Part shown: piece by piece, positions 22,981 to 59,757 of the stretch
How positions within the stretch are numbered: position 1 is the stretch's first letter
Layout of the letters: each line of letters begins with the position of its first letter
Source: Pseudidiomarina homiensis
Lineage (GTDB): Bacteria; Pseudomonadota; Gammaproteobacteria; Enterobacterales; Alteromonadaceae
NCBI RefSeq assembly: GCF_003987225.1
Contig: NZ_PIPX01000001.1
Span: forward strand, 558,001 to 622,000
DNA length: 64,000 bases
Direction of reading: 5' to 3'
Position numbers and translations under genes: made by a program
The notes under the pieces: model-generated
The model's input: the letters and a program-made list of their open reading frames with translations, nothing else
The model's database searches: none
What the model was told of the DNA's origin: nothing

Positions 22981-23021
22981 GCAAAAAATTGTAAAAGAAC
23001 AACTGGACGAGGAAGTGAATG

Positions 23022-23195
23022 ATGAAAAGACAGAAACGCGATCGCCTAGAACGGGCACACTCACAAGGTTTCAAAGCTGGTGTAGCGGGTCGTTCAAAAG
23101 AACTATGTCCGTATCAGAATCAAGAAATTCGTTCCCAGTGGTTAGGCGGTTGGCGCGACGCGCAAGAAGCGCGAAGTGTAGGGTTATATCGTTAA
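23022..23195 (+). CDS. rmf: Ribosome modulation factor RMF
   Basis: 57 residues beginning MKRQKRDRLERAHSQGF and containing AGVAGRSKELCPY and SQWLGGWRDAQEA, closely matching E. coli RMF (55 residues). RMF binds the 30S subunit near the anti-Shine-Dalgarno sequence and promotes 100S ribosome dimers in stationary phase. ATG 23022 is supported by GAGGAAG at 23009-23015, six bases upstream. The gene is easy to miss because of its size. It lies between uup/DUF3466 and fabA, as in E. coli where rmf is next to fabA. Regulation by growth phase and ppGpp is known in E. coli; here only a leader hairpin can be seen. Confidence 0.96.
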   Translation: MKRQKRDRLERAHSQGFKAGVAGRSKELCPYQNQEIRSQWLGGWRDAQEARSVGLYR

Positions 23196-23906: not shown

Positions 23907-25823
23907 TTACCAGATCCGCTTGTACCACGGCTGCTCAGGTTCACAGTGTTGCAGTTCCTCTAAACGCTTCTCGATACGAGCGTACAGCTGTTTCTGATTC
24001 TCACCGGTCAATAACGCTAACGCATCAGCAACATCATCAATGGCGTAGATGTGGTACTTGTTGGCTTCAACAGCCGCAATAATGTCAGGTTCAAGATTGA
24101 GTTGGCTCATATTAGCTTTTGGAATAATCACGCCTTGTTTACCATCGAAACCGCGAGCTTCGCAAAGCGCAAAGTGGCCTGTGATTTTTTCATTTACCGC
24201 CCCAATCGCTTGCACTGCGCCAAATTGATCTACCGCTCCGGTAATTGCGATACCTTGGGCAATAGGGGCCTCGGCTAGGGCTGATAACAAACAACAAAGT
24301 TCGGCTAAAGACGCACTGTCGCCGTCGACCTCATAATACGATTGCTCAAAAACGATAGTTGCGGATAACCGCATTTCTTCACTTTTGGCAAAAACATTCG
24401 CAATGTAGGCCGACAAGATCATGACGCCTTTGGTATGAATACTGCCACTTAATTCAGACTTTCGATCGATGTCGATAATATCGCCATCGCCATAGTGCAC
24501 CGTTGCAGTTATCCTTGAAGGCTCACCAAATTCACTACCGCCGATGGTAACCACAGTAAGACCATTCACTTGTCCAACAACTTCACCCTCCGTCGCAATG
24601 AAAACTTGGCCTTCAAGAATTTGCCGGCGACTAAGTTCCGCAATGTAACCTTCGCGTTGCTGTCGCTGTTTAAGCACCTGCAAGACTGCCTCATGATCGA
24701 TGACCTCTTGTGCCTTAGCCTGTGCAACCGCACCGGCTTCGCGCAGCAATTGCATTAAGGCAATGGTATCTAGGGATAGCTCGGTTTGATAATCGCTTAA
24801 CCGCGAAGCCTCTTTGAGGACTAAAGGCAGAGCTTCTTCGGTCACTGCTAGTGTTGCTGCCTCACGCTCAACATACGCCAAGTAATCAAAGTAGGGCACT
24901 AAGAAGGCATCTTGGCTTAACGAATAATGCGCTGAAAAATCAGCTAGATAAGGGAACAGGTTATCAAAATCCCGATCCAATTCACGTAGCTGCCCATAGA
25001 TAGAACGATCACCCAACAGCAACACCTTAAGGTGGATAGGAACAGGTTCAGGTTGATAATAAGCCGCAATATTTGCTTCGCCAGGCTGTGGCCAATGAAA
25101 CAAGCTGGTGCGCAGAATATACTTTAGCTTCCGCCATAGGCCCGGCTGCGTCAACAGTTCCTCGGCGTCGATAGCTAAAACTCCGCCGTTGGCTTTTAGT
25201 AGCGCCCCCGGTTGGATCAAATGGAGCTCCGAACTAATCGTGCCGGCAACAGATTGCAGACGGATGCCACCAAACAGGCTCGTATCCGTTACCCGATCAC
25301 AAAGTACAAAATCATCCGTTTGCTGATCGGATTCAACAATAATGGTTGCCAATTCATTGCCGGGTAAATCATCAAAGGTTTTATCGGAAACTCGGGTCAA
25401 ATAAGCATCAAAGCGGGCACTTGGGAACTTTTCCCTCAATTCTGTTAATAGCTTAGAGCGCTCCTTAACCGGTTGCTCAAAAAGTGACATTAAGCCCGTC
25501 AAAACATCGCGCGCAGCCCCCGCTGGAACGTTAACGCACAAAGGCTCGTTGGCTGAATCCGGATTCGCAAGATACAGCCAATCGTGCCGTTCAAAGTGCA
25601 TCCATTGATAGCGTTGTTGAAGCTCTTTCAATACATCCATTACCCGTAGGCCTGGTGTGGTGACCATAAAACCATGGGCATACCTACCACCGATCCGCAT
25701 TGTCTGTTCAATCGCCGCAAGAGCACGATTCTGACCCACTAATGGATTCGCGGATGGAGAAGCAGGGCGCTGTTGCGCCCAAGTATAGATAGGTGGTTGT
25801 AATTGTTCTGCTGCAACGCGCAT
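23907..25823 (-). CDS. lonH: Lon-family protease LonH/YcbZ (AAA-degenerate)
   Basis: A 638-residue protein with a C-terminal Lon (S16) protease domain. The catalytic serine is in VDGDSASLAELCCLL and the lysine in VNEKITGHF. Upstream is the AAA_32 substrate-binding type region. The N-terminal part resembles an AAA module, but the Walker A position reads MVTTPGLRVMD, without the GK[ST] needed for ATP binding, so ATP-independent or altered activity is likely. E. coli YcbZ (586) occupies the same place upstream of fabA. The gene begins 19 bases after the truncated traB remnant and could once have shared its promoter. Confidence 0.9.
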   Translation of the reverse strand: MRVAAEQLQPPIYTWAQQRPASPSANPLVGQNRALAAIEQTMRIGGRYAHGFMVTTPGLRVMDVLKELQQRYQWMHFERHDWLYLANPDSANEPLCVNVPAGAARDVLTGLMSLFEQPVKERSKLLTELREKFPSARFDAYLTRVSDKTFDDLPGNELATIIVESDQQTDDFVLCDRVTDTSLFGGIRLQSVAGTISSELHLIQPGALLKANGGVLAIDAEELLTQPGLWRKLKYILRTSLFHWPQPGEANIAAYYQPEPVPIHLKVLLLGDRSIYGQLRELDRDFDNLFPYLADFSAHYSLSQDAFLVPYFDYLAYVEREAATLAVTEEALPLVLKEASRLSDYQTELSLDTIALMQLLREAGAVAQAKAQEVIDHEAVLQVLKQRQQREGYIAELSRRQILEGQVFIATEGEVVGQVNGLTVVTIGGSEFGEPSRITATVHYGDGDIIDIDRKSELSGSIHTKGVMILSAYIANVFAKSEEMRLSATIVFEQSYYEVDGDSASLAELCCLLSALAEAPIAQGIAITGAVDQFGAVQAIGAVNEKITGHFALCEARGFDGKQGVIIPKANMSQLNLEPDIIAAVEANKYHIYAIDDVADALALLTGENQKQLYARIEKRLEELQHCEPEQPWYKRIW

Positions 25824-25842
25824 GCGCTTACCTTTTTTAACC

Positions 25843-26226
25843 TTAGTTTGAGACCGGCTCGACGGTGTAGCCGCGCTCCCGTAAAAGGTTGATCATACCA
25901 GCTTTTCCGCCTAAGTGACCTGCACCAACAGCAATAAATTCACTGCCATCAGCCTGTAATTCCTCATCTAATGTGTCCTGCCAAGTAAAGTTACGCTGAT
26001 CCAAGAGTACTTCTTTATATTCAGCGTATTCTTCCATCTCGGTGAACATACCGTACATTCCGTCAATATCTTCGGCTTTATACAGGTCGATCATGCGCTG
26101 TAACTCTGCTTTTGCTCCAGCTTCATCTTCAATTGCATCGGCCAGCCATTGAACTTGCTCCTCATGAGGAATTTGCTCAAACACGCCAAATTGAAATTCA
26201 CGGGCAAGAGCGTAGCGACAGACGCG
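25843..26226 (-). pseudogene. TraB/GumN-family remnant, N-terminal half missing
   Basis: The open frame encodes only the C-terminal part of a TraB/GumN family protein (COG3735; normally about 280-300 residues). It has the strong end motif FIAVGAGHLGGKAGMINLL and the preceding helices (EEQVQWLADAI). Family-like sequence begins near REFQFGVFEQIP (about 26202). Reading further upstream in frame gives a few unrelated codons, then TAA at 26229-26227, with no signal peptide or catalytic N-terminal motifs in any frame. A GTG at 26184 is the only plausible start and has no good ribosome site. The break lies about 90 bases from dif, so loss through recombination near dif is plausible but unproven. Confidence 0.75.
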
Positions 26227-26532
26227 TTAAATTGCCACTACCAAAATGTCACAAAGCATCAACAGAGGGCGAAGCCTATAAACGATGGCGACGGCTCCAA
26301 ATACACCAATTAGTAATTGCGCATAATGTATATTATGTTAAATACGATATTATTAAGGTTAGTTACAATAAGTAGGTATTCACATATTGACGTCGCTACG
26401 TGAAATTTTACCGGTTATACCCCTGCTTTTTAAAAAGCACGCACGTAGCGCACCATCGTAAAAATCGCACGCCATGTAAAAGGATTGGTATGGAAAAGAT
26501 CAATTGAAAAAATTCGCTCGCAGTCTGATGCG
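26227..26532. other. AT-rich intergenic stretch around dif, no gene seen
   Basis: Between the traB remnant and the SRPBCC gene neither strand has a convincing reading frame. The stretch is AT-rich around 26310-26400, and its only recognisable element is dif. I see no inverted repeats or transposase remains marking an insertion sequence. Any terminator for the - strand SRPBCC gene would be at 26440-26530, but no clear stem with a T run is visible. Confidence 0.7.
26316..26343 (+). other. dif: dif chromosome-dimer resolution site (XerC/XerD)
   Basis: The 28-base site has XerC arm ATTGCGCATAA (26316-26326), centre TGTATA (26327-26332) and XerD arm TTATGTTAAAT (26333-26343). It differs from the E. 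coli dif only at the first two bases of the XerC arm, as I recall that sequence. XerC and XerD recombine here to resolve chromosome dimers under FtsK control during division, so this marks the replication terminus. Support from context: leading-strand genes converge on it from both sides, and it lies in a gene-poor gap. Only one copy is seen, so no Xer-exploiting element is integrated now. Confidence 0.95.
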
Positions 26533-27081
26533 TTATCGCTTCATGTAGCTCTGGAATGACTTCATTTGTTGCTGTAGTACATTTTCGACCGCAGGTGCCC
26601 AACGCGACAAATCATTGCCAGTATAACCACCAACACGATAGCGTACGGTCAAAGTTGTCATGTGCTCGTCAGGATTATTAGCTAACGACCAATCCATCAC
26701 ACCATCGACACCTTCGGCTTGCAACGGTCCTAGTCCGCCGCTAAATCTAACCAGGCTGTGAGGTTCAACTTTAACAACACGCAGATGCTCAGTGAATCTC
26801 ATTTCATCTGCGATTTCACACAAACAACCTCCTGGTATTAGCCGTATCGACATATTTTCACTACGCCCATACCAAGTATGATCAGCAAGCCACCACTGAC
26901 CAATATCTTGCGTCAAGCCATCAAAAACCAACTTTAGATGGCCATCAACCGGCAGCGAAAACTCAAAGGTAAAACCATCAGTTGAGCTATCGAGAATCTC
27001 AGCTTCTGCCTTGCTGACAGGCAAAAACAATGTGCCCACAAAAGCTAATGCTGCAGCACACTTCGTTAGTTTCGCGTTCAT
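26533..27081 (-). CDS. Secreted SRPBCC (START/cyclase-like) domain protein
   Basis: 182 residues with a signal peptide (hydrophobic core about residues 9-22, cleavage near SKAEA). The body matches the SRPBCC helix-grip pattern: early strands FTFEFSLPVDG, a central WSLANNPDEHMTTLTVRYRVGGY, and a long C-terminal helix (WAPAVENVLQQQMKSFQ). Such folds enclose hydrophobic ligands. The start ATG overlaps the stop of the RND transporter by four bases, so it is translationally coupled to the pump and presumably periplasmic, where RND pumps collect substrates. A ligand-shuttling or membrane-stress role is inference only. Confidence 0.7.
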   Translation of the reverse strand: MNAKLTKCAAALAFVGTLFLPVSKAEAEILDSSTDGFTFEFSLPVDGHLKLVFDGLTQDIGQWWLADHTWYGRSENMSIRLIPGGCLCEIADEMRFTEHLRVVKVEPHSLVRFSGGLGPLQAEGVDGVMDWSLANNPDEHMTTLTVRYRVGGYTGNDLSRWAPAVENVLQQQMKSFQSYMKR

Positions 27082-30000
27082 GCATCCTCCGCCTGCTCCA
27101 TTTCTCGTTCAAGGCGCTGGGTTTCATCGGCACGAGGTTTGGTGAAACGTGCGAGCGCTAAATAAATCACAGGCGTTAAGTAAAGCGTAAAGAGTACTGC
27201 AAAAGCAAGTCCGCCAAAGACAACCCAACCAATCGAGTTACGCGCCTCTGCACCGGCACCTACAGAAAGGATAAGAGGCAATGCGCCCAACAGCGTGGAC
27301 ACCAAGGTCATCATGATAGGACGCAGACGAATACTTGCAGCGTGTTCAACTGCATCCCTTACAGACTGGCCTTTGTCACGAAGCTGGTCTGCAAATTCGA
27401 CAAGTAAGATTGAGTTTTTCGCAATTAAGCCAATAAGCATTACCAGACCAATCTGCGAGAAAACGTTGATCGATGTACCGGTTATGAACAACGCAAAGAA
27501 GGCTGCAGCTATACCAAACGGCACAGTTGCCATGACCACCACTGCGCTGTTCACACTTTCAAATTGCGCCGCTAACACGAGCAAAACGATAATGAATGCC
27601 AATATGTAGGTCATCATTACTTCGCGTTCTGTTTCTTCGTACGCCTCGGCCTCTCCCAGAAGTACCATACCGATATTGTCTGGCAGCGTTTCATTGGCGA
27701 TACTACGCAAGTTTTCCACGACTTGTTCAATTGGAATCGAGGTTGGCATTTGCATATCGACCTCAATGGCTCGGCGCTGCGCACGCCTTTCAAGCTCTGC
27801 CGCTACGCCCTCTTCACTTATACTTGCAACCGCCGAAAGCGGGACAACTTGGCCGTCTGCGGTGCCAACATATAGATTTGCCAAATCGGTTGGCGACTTT
27901 ATTAAACTTCGATCTGCTTGAAGCATTATTGGTACCGCTTGGTCACCAATATTTAAGTCAACAAGGTCATCTCCGTTAATCGCTACCCGTAGCGTTGAAG
28001 AAATATCGCTGAGCGAAACACCCAAGTCAGCCGCACGACGACGGTCAATATTCACACGTAACTGCGGTTGTGTGGGTTGGTAACCCACTCGTGGAAAGCC
28101 CACCTCTGGCATTTCTTGCTGAACAGCTTCGCCAAATTTTAGTGCAGCATTATAAATGTCGATGTATTCATCACCAGTTAAGGCGACTTCTAGCCCACCA
28201 CCTTGTCCACGTAGGTTCAAACTATTGGAACCAAAAGCACGTGCCGGAGCACCCGGGATGCGGCTTAAGGGTTCGCTAATTTCATCAATGATCTCTTGTT
28301 GTGAACGATCCCGTTCTTCCCAATCGGTCAAGCGTACCGTTATGAAAACCAAATTTGGGTCCCATTGCCCTACTCGCGTATTGATGCTCGCAACCGCCCC
28401 GCCGTTTACGTAAGGTAGTAGTATCTCTTCCATACGTTGCGCTTGACGATCCATAAAATTCAAACCGACACCATCTGGGCCGCGAGCAAAGATGCGGATC
28501 TGACCACGATCTTCTTGCGGCATAAGTTCGTTATCGACATTGAGATAGAACCAAACAGCACTTGCAGCAACCACTGTACAGCCGACAAAAACCAGTAATG
28601 CGTGATCAAGAACCCAATGAAGTGTTTGGCGGTAAACCTTTGAGAAACGACTTCCTAAGCGCGTCAGCACAGTCTCTTTATGCTCTTTTAAAGGTAAACG
28701 AGCAGTTAAGGCCGGTACTAATGAAAGCGCCACAAAGGAGGAAATAATGACGGCCGCCGCAAGCACGCCACCGAATTCACGGAACAATCTACCGGCGGTT
28801 GATGGTAAAAATGCAATAGGCACAAAAACAGCGACGAGCACTGCTGTTGTAGCAACAACGGCGAAAAAGACTTCACGTGTACCAATAACAGCTGCGGCAC
28901 GCGCGCCTAAGCCCATCGAGCGCCGACGTTGAATGTTTTCCGAAACCACAATTGCGTCATCGACAATCAGACCAGTAGCCAAGACCAAGGCCAACAGTGT
29001 CAAAATATTAATGGAAAACCCTAATACCCAAATAACAGCTATCGCACCAATAAGTGCCACGGGGATCGAAGCTGCAGGGATGATCGTCGCTCGTCCTGAA
29101 CCAATAAACAGCCATAACGTCGCAATCACTAAAAGAATAGTTAGCGCTAGTGACGTCACCACTTCTTCCACCGAACTGCGAATAAACTCGGCATCATCAT
29201 CAGTGACTTGAATCGTTAACTCAGGATATTGTTTACGCAAATTCTCAACTAAACGCAGCACTTCGTCGGAAATCTCAATGGTGTTCGAGCGCGCTTGACG
29301 AATGATGCCCAGCCCCAGAACTTGCTTACCATCGAGTCGCGTGATGCTACTTGCGTCGGCGGGTCCAAAATAAACGGTAGCGACGTCCCCTACTCGAGTC
29401 GTCCCAGATATTACGATGTTTTCGACATCTTCAGGTGAAACTGAGCTTGCATCAGCGCGAACAATAAGTTGCTGATCCGTAGATTTCAAACTGCCAGCAG
29501 GAACATCAAAAGGCGCTTGACGCAATGCAGAGGCGACCTGAGTTACTGTAAGGTTGTAACTTGATAGCCGCAGCGGTTCAATAACCACACGCATCACGCG
29601 GCGACGATCGCCGGTCAAACGCACGTCGGCAACACCCGGTATATTCAAAAAGTTGGGGGCGAGGTCGGTCTCAACACGTTCGGTTAGCGCCGACAGATCC
29701 AACGTGTCGCTTGATATTGCAAGCGCGACGACAGATTCAGCATCATTATCAGCTTTGATGATCGAAACGTTTTCAACCTGCTCAGGCAAGCCGCGCTGGA
29801 CACGACTTACTGATTCACGTGTTTCATTTGCTGCATTATCAAGATCAATACCAGGCCGGAACTCAATAACGATTCGAGAGCTGCCTTCCTCGCTCGAGGC
29901 TCGAATAGACTTCACACCGCTGACCCGCGCGGCAGCGCCTTCAAGTCGGCTGGTCACCTCTGTATCAACTGTTTCTGGTGCCGCGCCAGGATAACTCGCC

Positions 30001-30164
30001 GTGACCGATATTACCGGACGATCCACGTCTGGTAACTCGCGAACTTCAACGCCCTGTATTGCCGCTATACCAGCAATAATAATCAGCAGATTAAGGACAA
30101 CAATAAGAACCGGTCGACGAATCGACATCGATGGCAAATCATTTAACTGCGGCGCCCACTTCAT
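27078..30164 (-). CDS. RND efflux pump inner-membrane transporter (HAE1/AcrB type)
   Basis: A 1028-residue proton-driven exporter, full length for the family. Two homologous halves each carry six membrane helices and a large periplasmic loop. The proton-relay aspartate pair is in LATGLIVDDAIVVSEN (near residue 400). The second half has FSQIGLVMLIGLIAKNSILLVEFA. The N-terminus reads MSIRRPVLIVVLN, common in the MexF/AcrB-like branch. It sits between an adaptor gene (four-base overlap) and the SRPBCC gene (four-base overlap). No outer-membrane TolC-like gene or local repressor is nearby, so it must use an unlinked channel. Substrates unknown. Confidence 0.95.
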   Translation of the reverse strand: MKWAPQLNDLPSMSIRRPVLIVVLNLLIIIAGIAAIQGVEVRELPDVDRPVISVTASYPGAAPETVDTEVTSRLEGAAARVSGVKSIRASSEEGSSRIVIEFRPGIDLDNAANETRESVSRVQRGLPEQVENVSIIKADNDAESVVALAISSDTLDLSALTERVETDLAPNFLNIPGVADVRLTGDRRRVMRVVIEPLRLSSYNLTVTQVASALRQAPFDVPAGSLKSTDQQLIVRADASSVSPEDVENIVISGTTRVGDVATVYFGPADASSITRLDGKQVLGLGIIRQARSNTIEISDEVLRLVENLRKQYPELTIQVTDDDAEFIRSSVEEVVTSLALTILLVIATLWLFIGSGRATIIPAASIPVALIGAIAVIWVLGFSINILTLLALVLATGLIVDDAIVVSENIQRRRSMGLGARAAAVIGTREVFFAVVATTAVLVAVFVPIAFLPSTAGRLFREFGGVLAAAVIISSFVALSLVPALTARLPLKEHKETVLTRLGSRFSKVYRQTLHWVLDHALLVFVGCTVVAASAVWFYLNVDNELMPQEDRGQIRIFARGPDGVGLNFMDRQAQRMEEILLPYVNGGAVASINTRVGQWDPNLVFITVRLTDWEERDRSQQEIIDEISEPLSRIPGAPARAFGSNSLNLRGQGGGLEVALTGDEYIDIYNAALKFGEAVQQEMPEVGFPRVGYQPTQPQLRVNIDRRRAADLGVSLSDISSTLRVAINGDDLVDLNIGDQAVPIMLQADRSLIKSPTDLANLYVGTADGQVVPLSAVASISEEGVAAELERRAQRRAIEVDMQMPTSIPIEQVVENLRSIANETLPDNIGMVLLGEAEAYEETEREVMMTYILAFIIVLLVLAAQFESVNSAVVVMATVPFGIAAAFFALFITGTSINVFSQIGLVMLIGLIAKNSILLVEFADQLRDKGQSVRDAVEHAASIRLRPIMMTLVSTLLGALPLILSVGAGAEARNSIGWVVFGGLAFAVLFTLYLTPVIYLALARFTKPRADETQRLEREMEQAEDA

Positions 30165-57552: not shown

Positions 57553-58371
57553 TTAACTCTCTTGTTCAGCGCTGGCGCGTGCGTCAGTGCTTTCAAAGAT
57601 TTTGTCTGCTGAGGCAGCTACAAAGCCCGTGTAGAGTTTATTCGGTGCAATTTCATAACGCTTAGCAAATTCGTAGAAGCAACTTGGAATAACTTTTTCC
57701 ATGTCACTAAAACGCACCGGCGCATGATCCGCCATGGTCGACGATTGCTCCAGATAAACGTCTGGTGAACCCTTGATTTCGCCGCCCGACGAGTTCAGAC
57801 GAAAACCGGCGGTTTTAAGGGTTTCATTGACTTGTTCAAGCGACTCATAGTCCGGCAAATGATTCACGTTTACGGTAAAGTGATTGGCACGGAAGCCAAA
57901 CGCAGCCATCCACGCTGCATATTCACTTTCTTCAAGTAAACGCTCGTAATCATTGCTGCTAATCTGCCAATGCGTACCCGAATACAAGAATTCAGACTGT
58001 TCTACTTTAGCGGGATCAATTTGCGCAACGAGCTCTTTAACGATGCCTTGCAATTCCGGCGAAAATTCTTCGACCAGCAATTCGCTAATAAAGATTTTCG
58101 GTAATGCAGGGTCATCGTGTTCAAAGTGCTTAGCTACAAGTCGCTTGGCTTCAAAATGATAATCTCCGCAAGCCTTGTAACCCATGGCTTCAAAATGCTT
58201 GGCTAAGGTCGCAAGACGTACAGGTGCCTGATTAAAGGTACGAAACGCGACATGATCATTGATGATATCGCGCCCCTGCCCTAAGACCTGATGCACTTTT
58301 GCTGCTGACGGAGTAAGTTTGATGTAATCGTTCCAAAGGTTCTCAAAAAACTGCTCAACCTGTTGTGACAT
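57553..58371 (-). CDS. DUF1338 family protein (HglS-like 2-oxoacid dioxygenase fold)
   Basis: 272 residues, cytoplasmic. The family includes HglS/YdcJ, an Fe(II) enzyme turning 2-oxoadipate into D-2-hydroxyglutarate. Candidate metal ligands are His in NDHVAFRTFNQ and in RANHFTVNVNHL, with a later glutamate. This is the short form; HglS is about 450 residues, so its substrate may differ. Notably ydiJ nearby belongs to the enzyme family that can oxidise D-2-hydroxyglutarate, so a lysine-catabolic link is conceivable. It starts 27 bases after the DAHP synthase gene on the same strand and ends five bases from the convergent ppsR. Confidence 0.8.
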   Translation of the reverse strand: MSQQVEQFFENLWNDYIKLTPSAAKVHQVLGQGRDIINDHVAFRTFNQAPVRLATLAKHFEAMGYKACGDYHFEAKRLVAKHFEHDDPALPKIFISELLVEEFSPELQGIVKELVAQIDPAKVEQSEFLYSGTHWQISSNDYERLLEESEYAAWMAAFGFRANHFTVNVNHLPDYESLEQVNETLKTAGFRLNSSGGEIKGSPDVYLEQSSTMADHAPVRFSDMEKVIPSCFYEFAKRYEIAPNKLYTGFVAASADKIFESTDARASAEQES

Positions 58372-58398: not shown

Positions 58399-59757
58399 TT
58401 AACCGCGGCCTTGACGTGCCTCACGGAGAGAATCTGCCACCAAGAATGCAAGTTCCAAAACTTGGTCGGCATTCAAACGCGGATCGCACTGGGTGCGATA
58501 GCGTTGCGTCAAATCTTGTTCACTAATCTGATAAGCACCACCGGTGCATTCAGTCACGTCTTCGCCAGTCATCTCCAGATGAACGCCACCTGGATAGGTG
58601 CCTTCTGCTTGATGAACCGCGAAGAACTGGCGTAATTCCTGATGTATGGCGTCAAAGTTACGGGTTTTCAAGCCATTCTCGGCTTTCACCGTGTTGCCAT
58701 GCATCGGGTCGCTCGACCACACCACGTGACGCCCTTCACTTTTTACCTTGCGAACGATAGCAGGCAAGGCAGCCGCTAAATTCTCGGCACCCATGCGCGT
58801 AATCAGCGTCATGCGACCTGGCTCATTTGCCGGGTTCAAGGCGTCTAACAACGCAATAACGTCGTCAGGTTTAGTGGTCGGACCTATTTTAACACCAATT
58901 GGGTTGTGAATGCCACGCATGAACTCAACATGGGCATGATCCAATTGCCGCGTGCGCTCACCAATCCATACCATGTGCGCTGAGCAGTCATAAGGTAGCC
59001 CTGTCAACGTATCAGTCCGCGTTAACGCTTCTTCGTAAGGCAATAGCAACGCTTCATGCGAAGTAAATAGCTGTGTTTCATGGATCGTGGCATTGGTATC
59101 TGCAGTAATGCCTACAACTTCCATAAATTTCAGTGCTGATTGAATTTGCTCAGCAACCTGCAAATATTTATCTTTTAAAGGATTTGCTGCAACAAAACTC
59201 ATGTTCCACTTATGCACTTTATGCAGATCCGCGAGACCACCCTGTGCAAAAGCTCGTAACAGGTTCAATGTCGCTGCCGAGTGATGGTAGGCCTGGACCA
59301 TTCGTTGCGCATCTGGAACGCGTGCCACTTCGGTAAATTCTGGACCATTAATAATGTCGCCGCGGTAACTTGGTAAGGCTATACCATCAATGGTTTCTAA
59401 ATCACTCGAACGTGGCTTCGCATATTGTCCTGCCATGCGTGCCACTTTTGTTACTGGGCACGAACCGGCGAAAGTTAAAACAATCGCCATTTGCAGAATG
59501 ACTTTAAAGGTGTCACGGATCTTTGGCGCATTAAAGTCAGCGAAGGACTCAGCACAGTCGCCACCTTGCAATAAAAACCCCTGCCCTTGGCTTACTTGTC
59601 CAAGTTGTCGTCTAAGCGCTCGAATTTCTTCGGCAAACACCAACGGTGGGAACATCTTTAATTGTTGTTCAACGTTGTTAAGCTGTGCTTTGTCTGGGTA
59701 ATTCGGCTGTTGTTGGATCGGTCTCTCGCGCCAACTACGCGCACTCCAGTTTGTCAT
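58399..59757 (-). CDS. Class II 3-deoxy-7-phosphoheptulonate (DAHP) synthase
   Basis: First step of aromatic amino-acid synthesis, condensing PEP with erythrose-4-phosphate. The 452-residue plant/Mycobacterium-like class II form shows [58 protein letters not shown], and [16 protein letters not shown] with metal-binding residues. E. coli uses class I enzymes, and its aroH lies near ppsR, so a class II gene holds the comparable place here. It is probably co-transcribed with the DUF1338 gene. Confidence 0.96.

Follow-up and report, generated by a model that had tools for sequence, protein, structure and literature searches.

Here we asked whether a 28-bp sequence in the genome of Pseudidiomarina homiensis is the site at which fused sister chromosomes are split, what it says about the direction in which the surrounding DNA is replicated, and whether it accounts for the state of the genes beside it. 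The sequence lies in a stretch of 64,000 nucleotides, referred to below as the window, which corresponds to C1:558001-622000; the assembly has 6 contigs, totals 2612526 bases and is 99.95% complete.

Sequence, conservation and machinery of the dif site

A sequence-only reading of the window had proposed a near-perfect dif at 26316..26343, in which the XerD arm and the centre are identical to E. coli dif and two outer bases of the XerC arm differ, and this description proved exact in both sequence and coordinates. The 28-mer, ATTGCGCATAATGTATATTATGTTAAAT on the + strand, is located at window positions 26316-26343 (position 584316 of contig C1). When the window was searched with the E. coli 28-mer, allowing up to 3 mismatches, it gave the one match, with 2 mismatches, compared with 0 in 100 shuffles; the second-best place in the window has 10-11 mismatches. 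The E. coli K-12 sequence used in the comparison is the one listed in Table 1 of PMC2731167 (GGTGCGCATAATGTATATTATGTTAAAT). The two sites agree at 26 of 28 positions, which take in the whole XerD arm, the central hexamer and the inner XerC arm, and they differ solely at bases 1-2 in the outer XerC arm, which are AT in P. homiensis and GG in E. coli. With the first two bases left free, the site is also the sole match at up to 3 mismatches in the entire assembly, and thus no better dif is present elsewhere at that threshold. Its parts are as follows.

26316..26326, + strand: XerC-binding arm of dif, ATTGCGCATAA; bases 1-3 (ATT) invariant in 26/26 genus genomes, bases 4, 7 and 9 variable
26327..26332, + strand: central hexamer of dif, TGTATA; identical to E. 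coli dif, TATATA in 1/26 genomes
26333..26343, + strand: XerD-binding arm of dif, TTATGTTAAAT; identical to E. coli and invariant in 26/26 genus genomes

This arrangement of 28 bp as 11-6-11, with the XerD arm the best conserved part, follows the proteobacterial pattern, and the site is intergenic, falling between ORFs 25843-26184 and 26533-27081.

Conservation of the site extends across the genus. All 26 Pseudidiomarina genomes analysed, the window's own included, contain exactly one match at up to 3 mismatches; each of these sites begins with ATT and ends in the same XerD arm, and variation is confined to positions 4, 7, 9 and 13. The 26 sites offer a tidy natural sample of the dif positions at which variation is allowed. 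Information content averages 1.91 bits per column in dif; over 40 bases on either side it is 0.31 to the left and 0.62 to the right. Conservation in the XerD-side flank (window 26344-26383) is thus about double that in the XerC-side flank and is high in the columns at +5, +6, +13, +27, +29 and +30. This may reflect either common descent or a genuine accessory sequence. Outside the genus, Table 1 of PMC2731167 listed the dif of Idiomarina loihiensis L2TR in 2009 as ATTGCGTATAATGTATATTATGTTAAAT, and describes it as lying between genes, 24 kb away from the skew maximum. It has 27 of 28 bases in common with that of P. homiensis, including the AT start, and carries T rather than C at position 7, which is exactly the variant present in 6 of the 26 genus genomes. 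In a wider sample of the family, only 36 of 79 genomes matched, with one site each, which counts against the dif reading, although the other 43 may have a dif that lies beyond 3 mismatches.

The genome also encodes the proteins that would act on such a site. XerD is encoded at C1:707594 (378.4 bits against an NCBIfam cut-off of 329.6; best solved match XerD 1a0p). An XerC-like protein at C2:8945 has XerC as its best match, at 330.3 bits, just under the equivalog cut-off of 335.15, and its name consequently rests on the best match and not on the cut-off. A third, partial Xer match, of 81 bits, is found on C3. An FtsK gamma domain is encoded at C1:520943 and matches the solved FtsK domains 2j5o, 2ve8 and 2j5p with E-values between 1.8e-23 and 4.6e-23. 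By analogy with E. coli and Vibrio, recombination would occasionally fuse sister chromosomes into a dimer that has to be split; septum-bound FtsK would load at KOPS pointing to dif from both arms and pump DNA until it reaches XerCD bound at dif, where its gamma domain would activate XerD, and XerC would then complete the crossover and resolve the dimer, strand exchange at this site being presumed from those systems.

Replichore orientation around dif

If the site is in use, FtsK-orienting sequences should point to it, and the window holds two.

58274..58281, - strand: KOPS octamer (GGGCAGGG on the - strand), pointing toward dif
59579..59586, - strand: KOPS octamer (GGGCAGGG on the - strand), pointing toward dif

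The earlier reading had named one octamer, at 59579-59586, that aims at dif from the right; its orientation was correct and its count was not, since CCCTGCCC occurs twice in the window, at 58274 and 59579, with both copies aimed at dif. Left of dif, the window contains no KOPS. Genome-wide, GGGNAGGG is present 82 times, 68 of them on C1. Among the C1 sites left of dif, 25 of 28 point right, and between dif and 1.83 Mb 35 of 39 point left (Fisher p 3.5e-11; the count covers the 67 sites of C1 up to 1.83 Mb, so that one C1 site close to the far end and the 14 elsewhere in the assembly are set aside). The switch in orientation around dif that had been predicted is therefore present: the best single switch interval on C1 is 520739-616274, which is 95 kb wide, contains dif and agrees with 60 of the 67 sites, with the remaining 7 running against the switch point and counting against the dif reading. 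The reversed-pattern control consists of totals only, 35 and 30.

GC skew, sampled as twenty 20-kb stretches over the genome, is positive in 6 of 6 stretches left of dif on C1 and negative in 11 of 11 between 0.65 and 1.82 Mb; the other three stretches, one near the end of C1 and two on C2, are positive. At the resolution of this sampling the skew changes sign across dif, and an extremum far from the site, which would have spoken against the earlier reading, was not seen. Its sign switches back near 1.825 Mb, next to two exact DnaA-box 9-mers, and dnaA is located at 1.767 Mb. Inside the window, the cumulative maximum is at 23183, 3.1 kb left of dif and about where the gene strand switches; this local maximum follows gene strand and so counts against the dif reading. 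The strand pattern itself bears out in part the claim that leading-strand genes converge on dif. ORFs of at least 150 aa from 287 to 22830 are all on the + strand and genes at 26.5-33.4 kb are on the - strand, as the claim requires, but those at 23.3-26.2 kb are already on the - strand and most of those at 33.5-51 kb are on the + strand again.

Exact overlaps of 127 bases link the ends of C1 and C3 to those of C6, which carries an rRNA operon, and the ends of C2 and C4 resemble those of C1 and C3. Therefore, C1 to C4 are probably one chromosome that was broken at rRNA operons in the assembly. If they form one circle, contig-length arithmetic puts the point exactly opposite the inferred origin at approximately 60-70 kb from dif.

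Together, single copy, KOPS convergence, sampled skew, a place roughly opposite the inferred origin and genus-wide conservation support the view that dif marks the terminus-side replichore junction and sets the replichore orientation of the window, as the sequence-only reading had maintained; with this, the orientation of the window's genes relative to replication is fixed. That replication forks also fuse at dif itself, making it the terminus in the strict sense, is a separate proposal and an unlikely one. The nearby switches in KOPS and skew are in keeping with it, as is the fact that a search for a Tus-family protein in the genome returned no match; against it, KOPS bracket the switch only to within 95 kb, the skew peaks locally 3.1 kb from dif, dif is off the antipode by the distance given above if C1 to C4 are one circle, and PMC3025954 suggests that termination occurs at a site other than dif. 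A search of the window for the matS motif gave no match.

The site at 26316-26343 thus has what is expected of a proteobacterial dif, in that it is single copy, near the skew maximum and the point of KOPS convergence, conserved, intergenic and accompanied by the genes for its machinery. Because copy number, KOPS convergence, skew, machinery genes and conservation in the genus all point the same way, we conclude that it is almost certainly the chromosome's single canonical dif, used for splitting fused sister chromosomes. It is an entirely known kind of site, real and well placed.

Elements at dif in related genomes

In four of the 26 genomes (G002, G003, G017 and G018; loci L028, L029, L082 and L105) dif is occupied. 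Each has a second site to the left of dif with the centre TGTATA, an XerC arm of the genus kind and an XerD arm mismatched at 5-8 of 11 positions, and the four site-to-site distances are 1959, 7892, 1572 and 1517 bp. A loose pattern of XerC arm plus centre found 28 matches in 933924 fetched bases, namely these four second sites and 24 that run on into the XerD arm of dif. In L028 and L029, the XerC arm of the right-hand dif copy is unlike that of the left copy. As described in PMC4246890 and PMC5357621, the attachment site of TLCphi has an XerC site and centre as in dif and a degenerate XerD site. All four elements match this layout of the TLCphi-type integrative mobile elements exploiting Xer (IMEX) of Vibrio cholerae, keeping the XerC arm and centre beside a degenerate XerD arm; the likeness is to the description rather than to TLCphi sequence, and the genes differ as far as seen.

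The gene content of the elements varies. The 7.9-kb element encodes Phage_CRI/G2P, G5P, a Zot-family assembly protein and DUF2523, all filamentous-phage proteins, and the 1.96-kb element encodes an ORF2/G2P-type replication protein. Replication proteins are accordingly present in L028 and L029, and none was recognised by eye among the ORFs of the 1.5-kb elements L082 and L105, of which two L082 ORFs were covered by the Pfam scan. Common to the four is a related helix-turn-helix (HTH) protein (alignment A1), which occurs in exactly the same 4 of 26 genomes and in each case between the two sites; the A1 model was built from three of the four sequences, so only that of G017 is an independent find.

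Against the NCBIfam model of the VC1465 Xer activation factor, two of three scanned HTH proteins scored 20.2 and 21.4 bits over most of the model and the third gave no match, which leaves all three outside the XafT/VC1465 family at its cut-off of 70. Other HTH-type hits in the genus equal or exceed these scores, the highest, at 38.6 bits, being in the window's own genome. A genus-wide search with the XafT family (NF040522) gave hits in 12 of 26 genomes, none above cut-off, and of the 16 places listed, 15 reach no further than roughly the first 30 to 54 of the model's 111 positions; hits also came from 4 of 14 control genomes, and the search is therefore not specific. The G003 element protein, which scored 21.4 bits against the VC1465 model, is absent from the NF040522 matches in the genus. 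The possible link of the HTH protein to the VC1465 factor is a lead and not a family membership. In PHROGs, the three HTH proteins all fall into phrog_23834, a group of unknown function. In the phage collection, L029:8000-18500 had no near match and the L082 HTH protein had two weak ones (E 4e-5 and 7e-4); one viral contig (L094) carries a relative of the HTH protein, with no dif-like site in 4402 of its 8600 bases.

The Phage_CRI search identified two of the 26 genomes, G003 and the window's own, in which the match is on contig C5 (L108, 6598 bp). C5 aligns with the G003 element over most of its length at 69-75% DNA identity. Its best match to dif has 12 mismatches, so that it contains no dif-like site; an A1-type HTH gene was not found in the window's genome, and the ends of C5 have no exact overlap with each other or with the ends of other contigs. 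The dif on C1 was assembled empty. The simplest reading is that C5 is an extrachromosomal filamentous phage, a short piece of which would be missing from the assembly.

From these observations we tentatively propose, as a reading that may well prove wrong, that dif in this genus is a common docking site for TLCphi-type Xer-exploiting elements, ranging from filamentous phages to 1.5-kb elements with no recognised replication gene, each with an HTH protein that is perhaps a new and distant Xer activation factor; the filamentous phage of the window's strain would remain outside the chromosome and leave its dif empty. With elements of this kind one could ask if Xer integration that does not depend on FtsK also occurs in bacteria other than Vibrio, using a different activator. 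A literature search on Idiomarina, filamentous phage and dif, with Pseudidiomarina by name outside its scope, found only PMC2731167.

The elements also raise the question of whether the dif of the window was left behind or rebuilt by an integrated IMEX and is not the host's original. That an element flanks dif in four relatives, and that the right copy in L028 and L029 has an XerC arm unlike the left, speaks for this. Yet no second site accompanies dif in the window, where the next best match has 10-11 mismatches; an element remnant (XerC arm plus centre) was sought within a few kb and none was found; and on the XerC side the flanking sequence can be aligned to its counterpart in the nearest relative, itself free of elements. 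We regard this origin as very improbable, and a rebuilt copy would still be a working dif. Least credible of all, to the point of being negligible, is a chance or vestigial dif-like sequence with the true dif elsewhere, a reading in favour of which nothing was found, given the single genome-wide match, KOPS convergence on it, and conservation in 26 of 26 genomes with an invariant XerD arm between weakly conserved flanks (1.91 versus 0.31 and 0.62 bits per column).

Genes beside dif

The genes nearest to the site are the following.

23907..25823, - strand: LonB-like protease gene, the conserved XerC-side neighbour of dif
25843..26184, - strand: truncated TraB/GumN-family gene; C-terminal 113 aa kept (Pfam PF01963 positions 154-263 of 263), 5' part deleted
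27078..30164, - strand: RND efflux permease gene, the conserved XerD-side neighbour of dif

In all 24 relatives for which both flanks were fetched (all but G017), dif has the RND permease gene as its XerD-side neighbour and the LonB-like protease gene at the XerC arm. Between them, ORF 25843-26184 corresponds to the C-terminal part of a TraB/PrgY/GumN-family protein. Alignment with L043, the nearest relative, shows that 539 bp are missing from the window in the interval from this remnant to dif; dif and the bases directly beside it are intact. A full-length TraB/GumN gene, of 282-318 aa, is present near dif in 23 of the 24 relatives, and in the remaining one no such gene was seen; therefore, the truncation is a 539-bp deletion that those 23 do not have, and across window 25843-26210 it was seen in none of the 24. 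L043 itself is missing a portion of the gene that flanks dif on the opposite side (26533-27081). The surroundings of dif thus vary by small indels, and the site alone does not account for the loss. The proposal that dif explains an eroded neighbourhood is accordingly not sustained: the erosion amounts to one truncated TraB/GumN gene, which 23 of 24 relatives keep at full length beside the same site. The truncation was also considered as the scar of an excised element, and this was rejected, as no dif-like remnant is present and the difference from L043 is a plain 539-bp gap.

In two relatives, L027 and L041, inserts of approximately 3.0 and 5.6 kb separate TraB from dif. These contain no second dif-like site and, by eye, look like ordinary chromosomal genes. 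Plasmid relatives of window 24000-29000 comprise 17 records, each of which aligns to 10% of the query or less, at 60-80% identity, and the features named in them are an RND permease or a Lon-family protease. Repeats around dif belong to short families only, of two or three imperfect copies. Further to the left, ORF 23019-23195 adjoins fabA and the LonB-like protease gene, in an order common to most relatives, and encodes what we take to be a protein resembling ribosome modulation factor.
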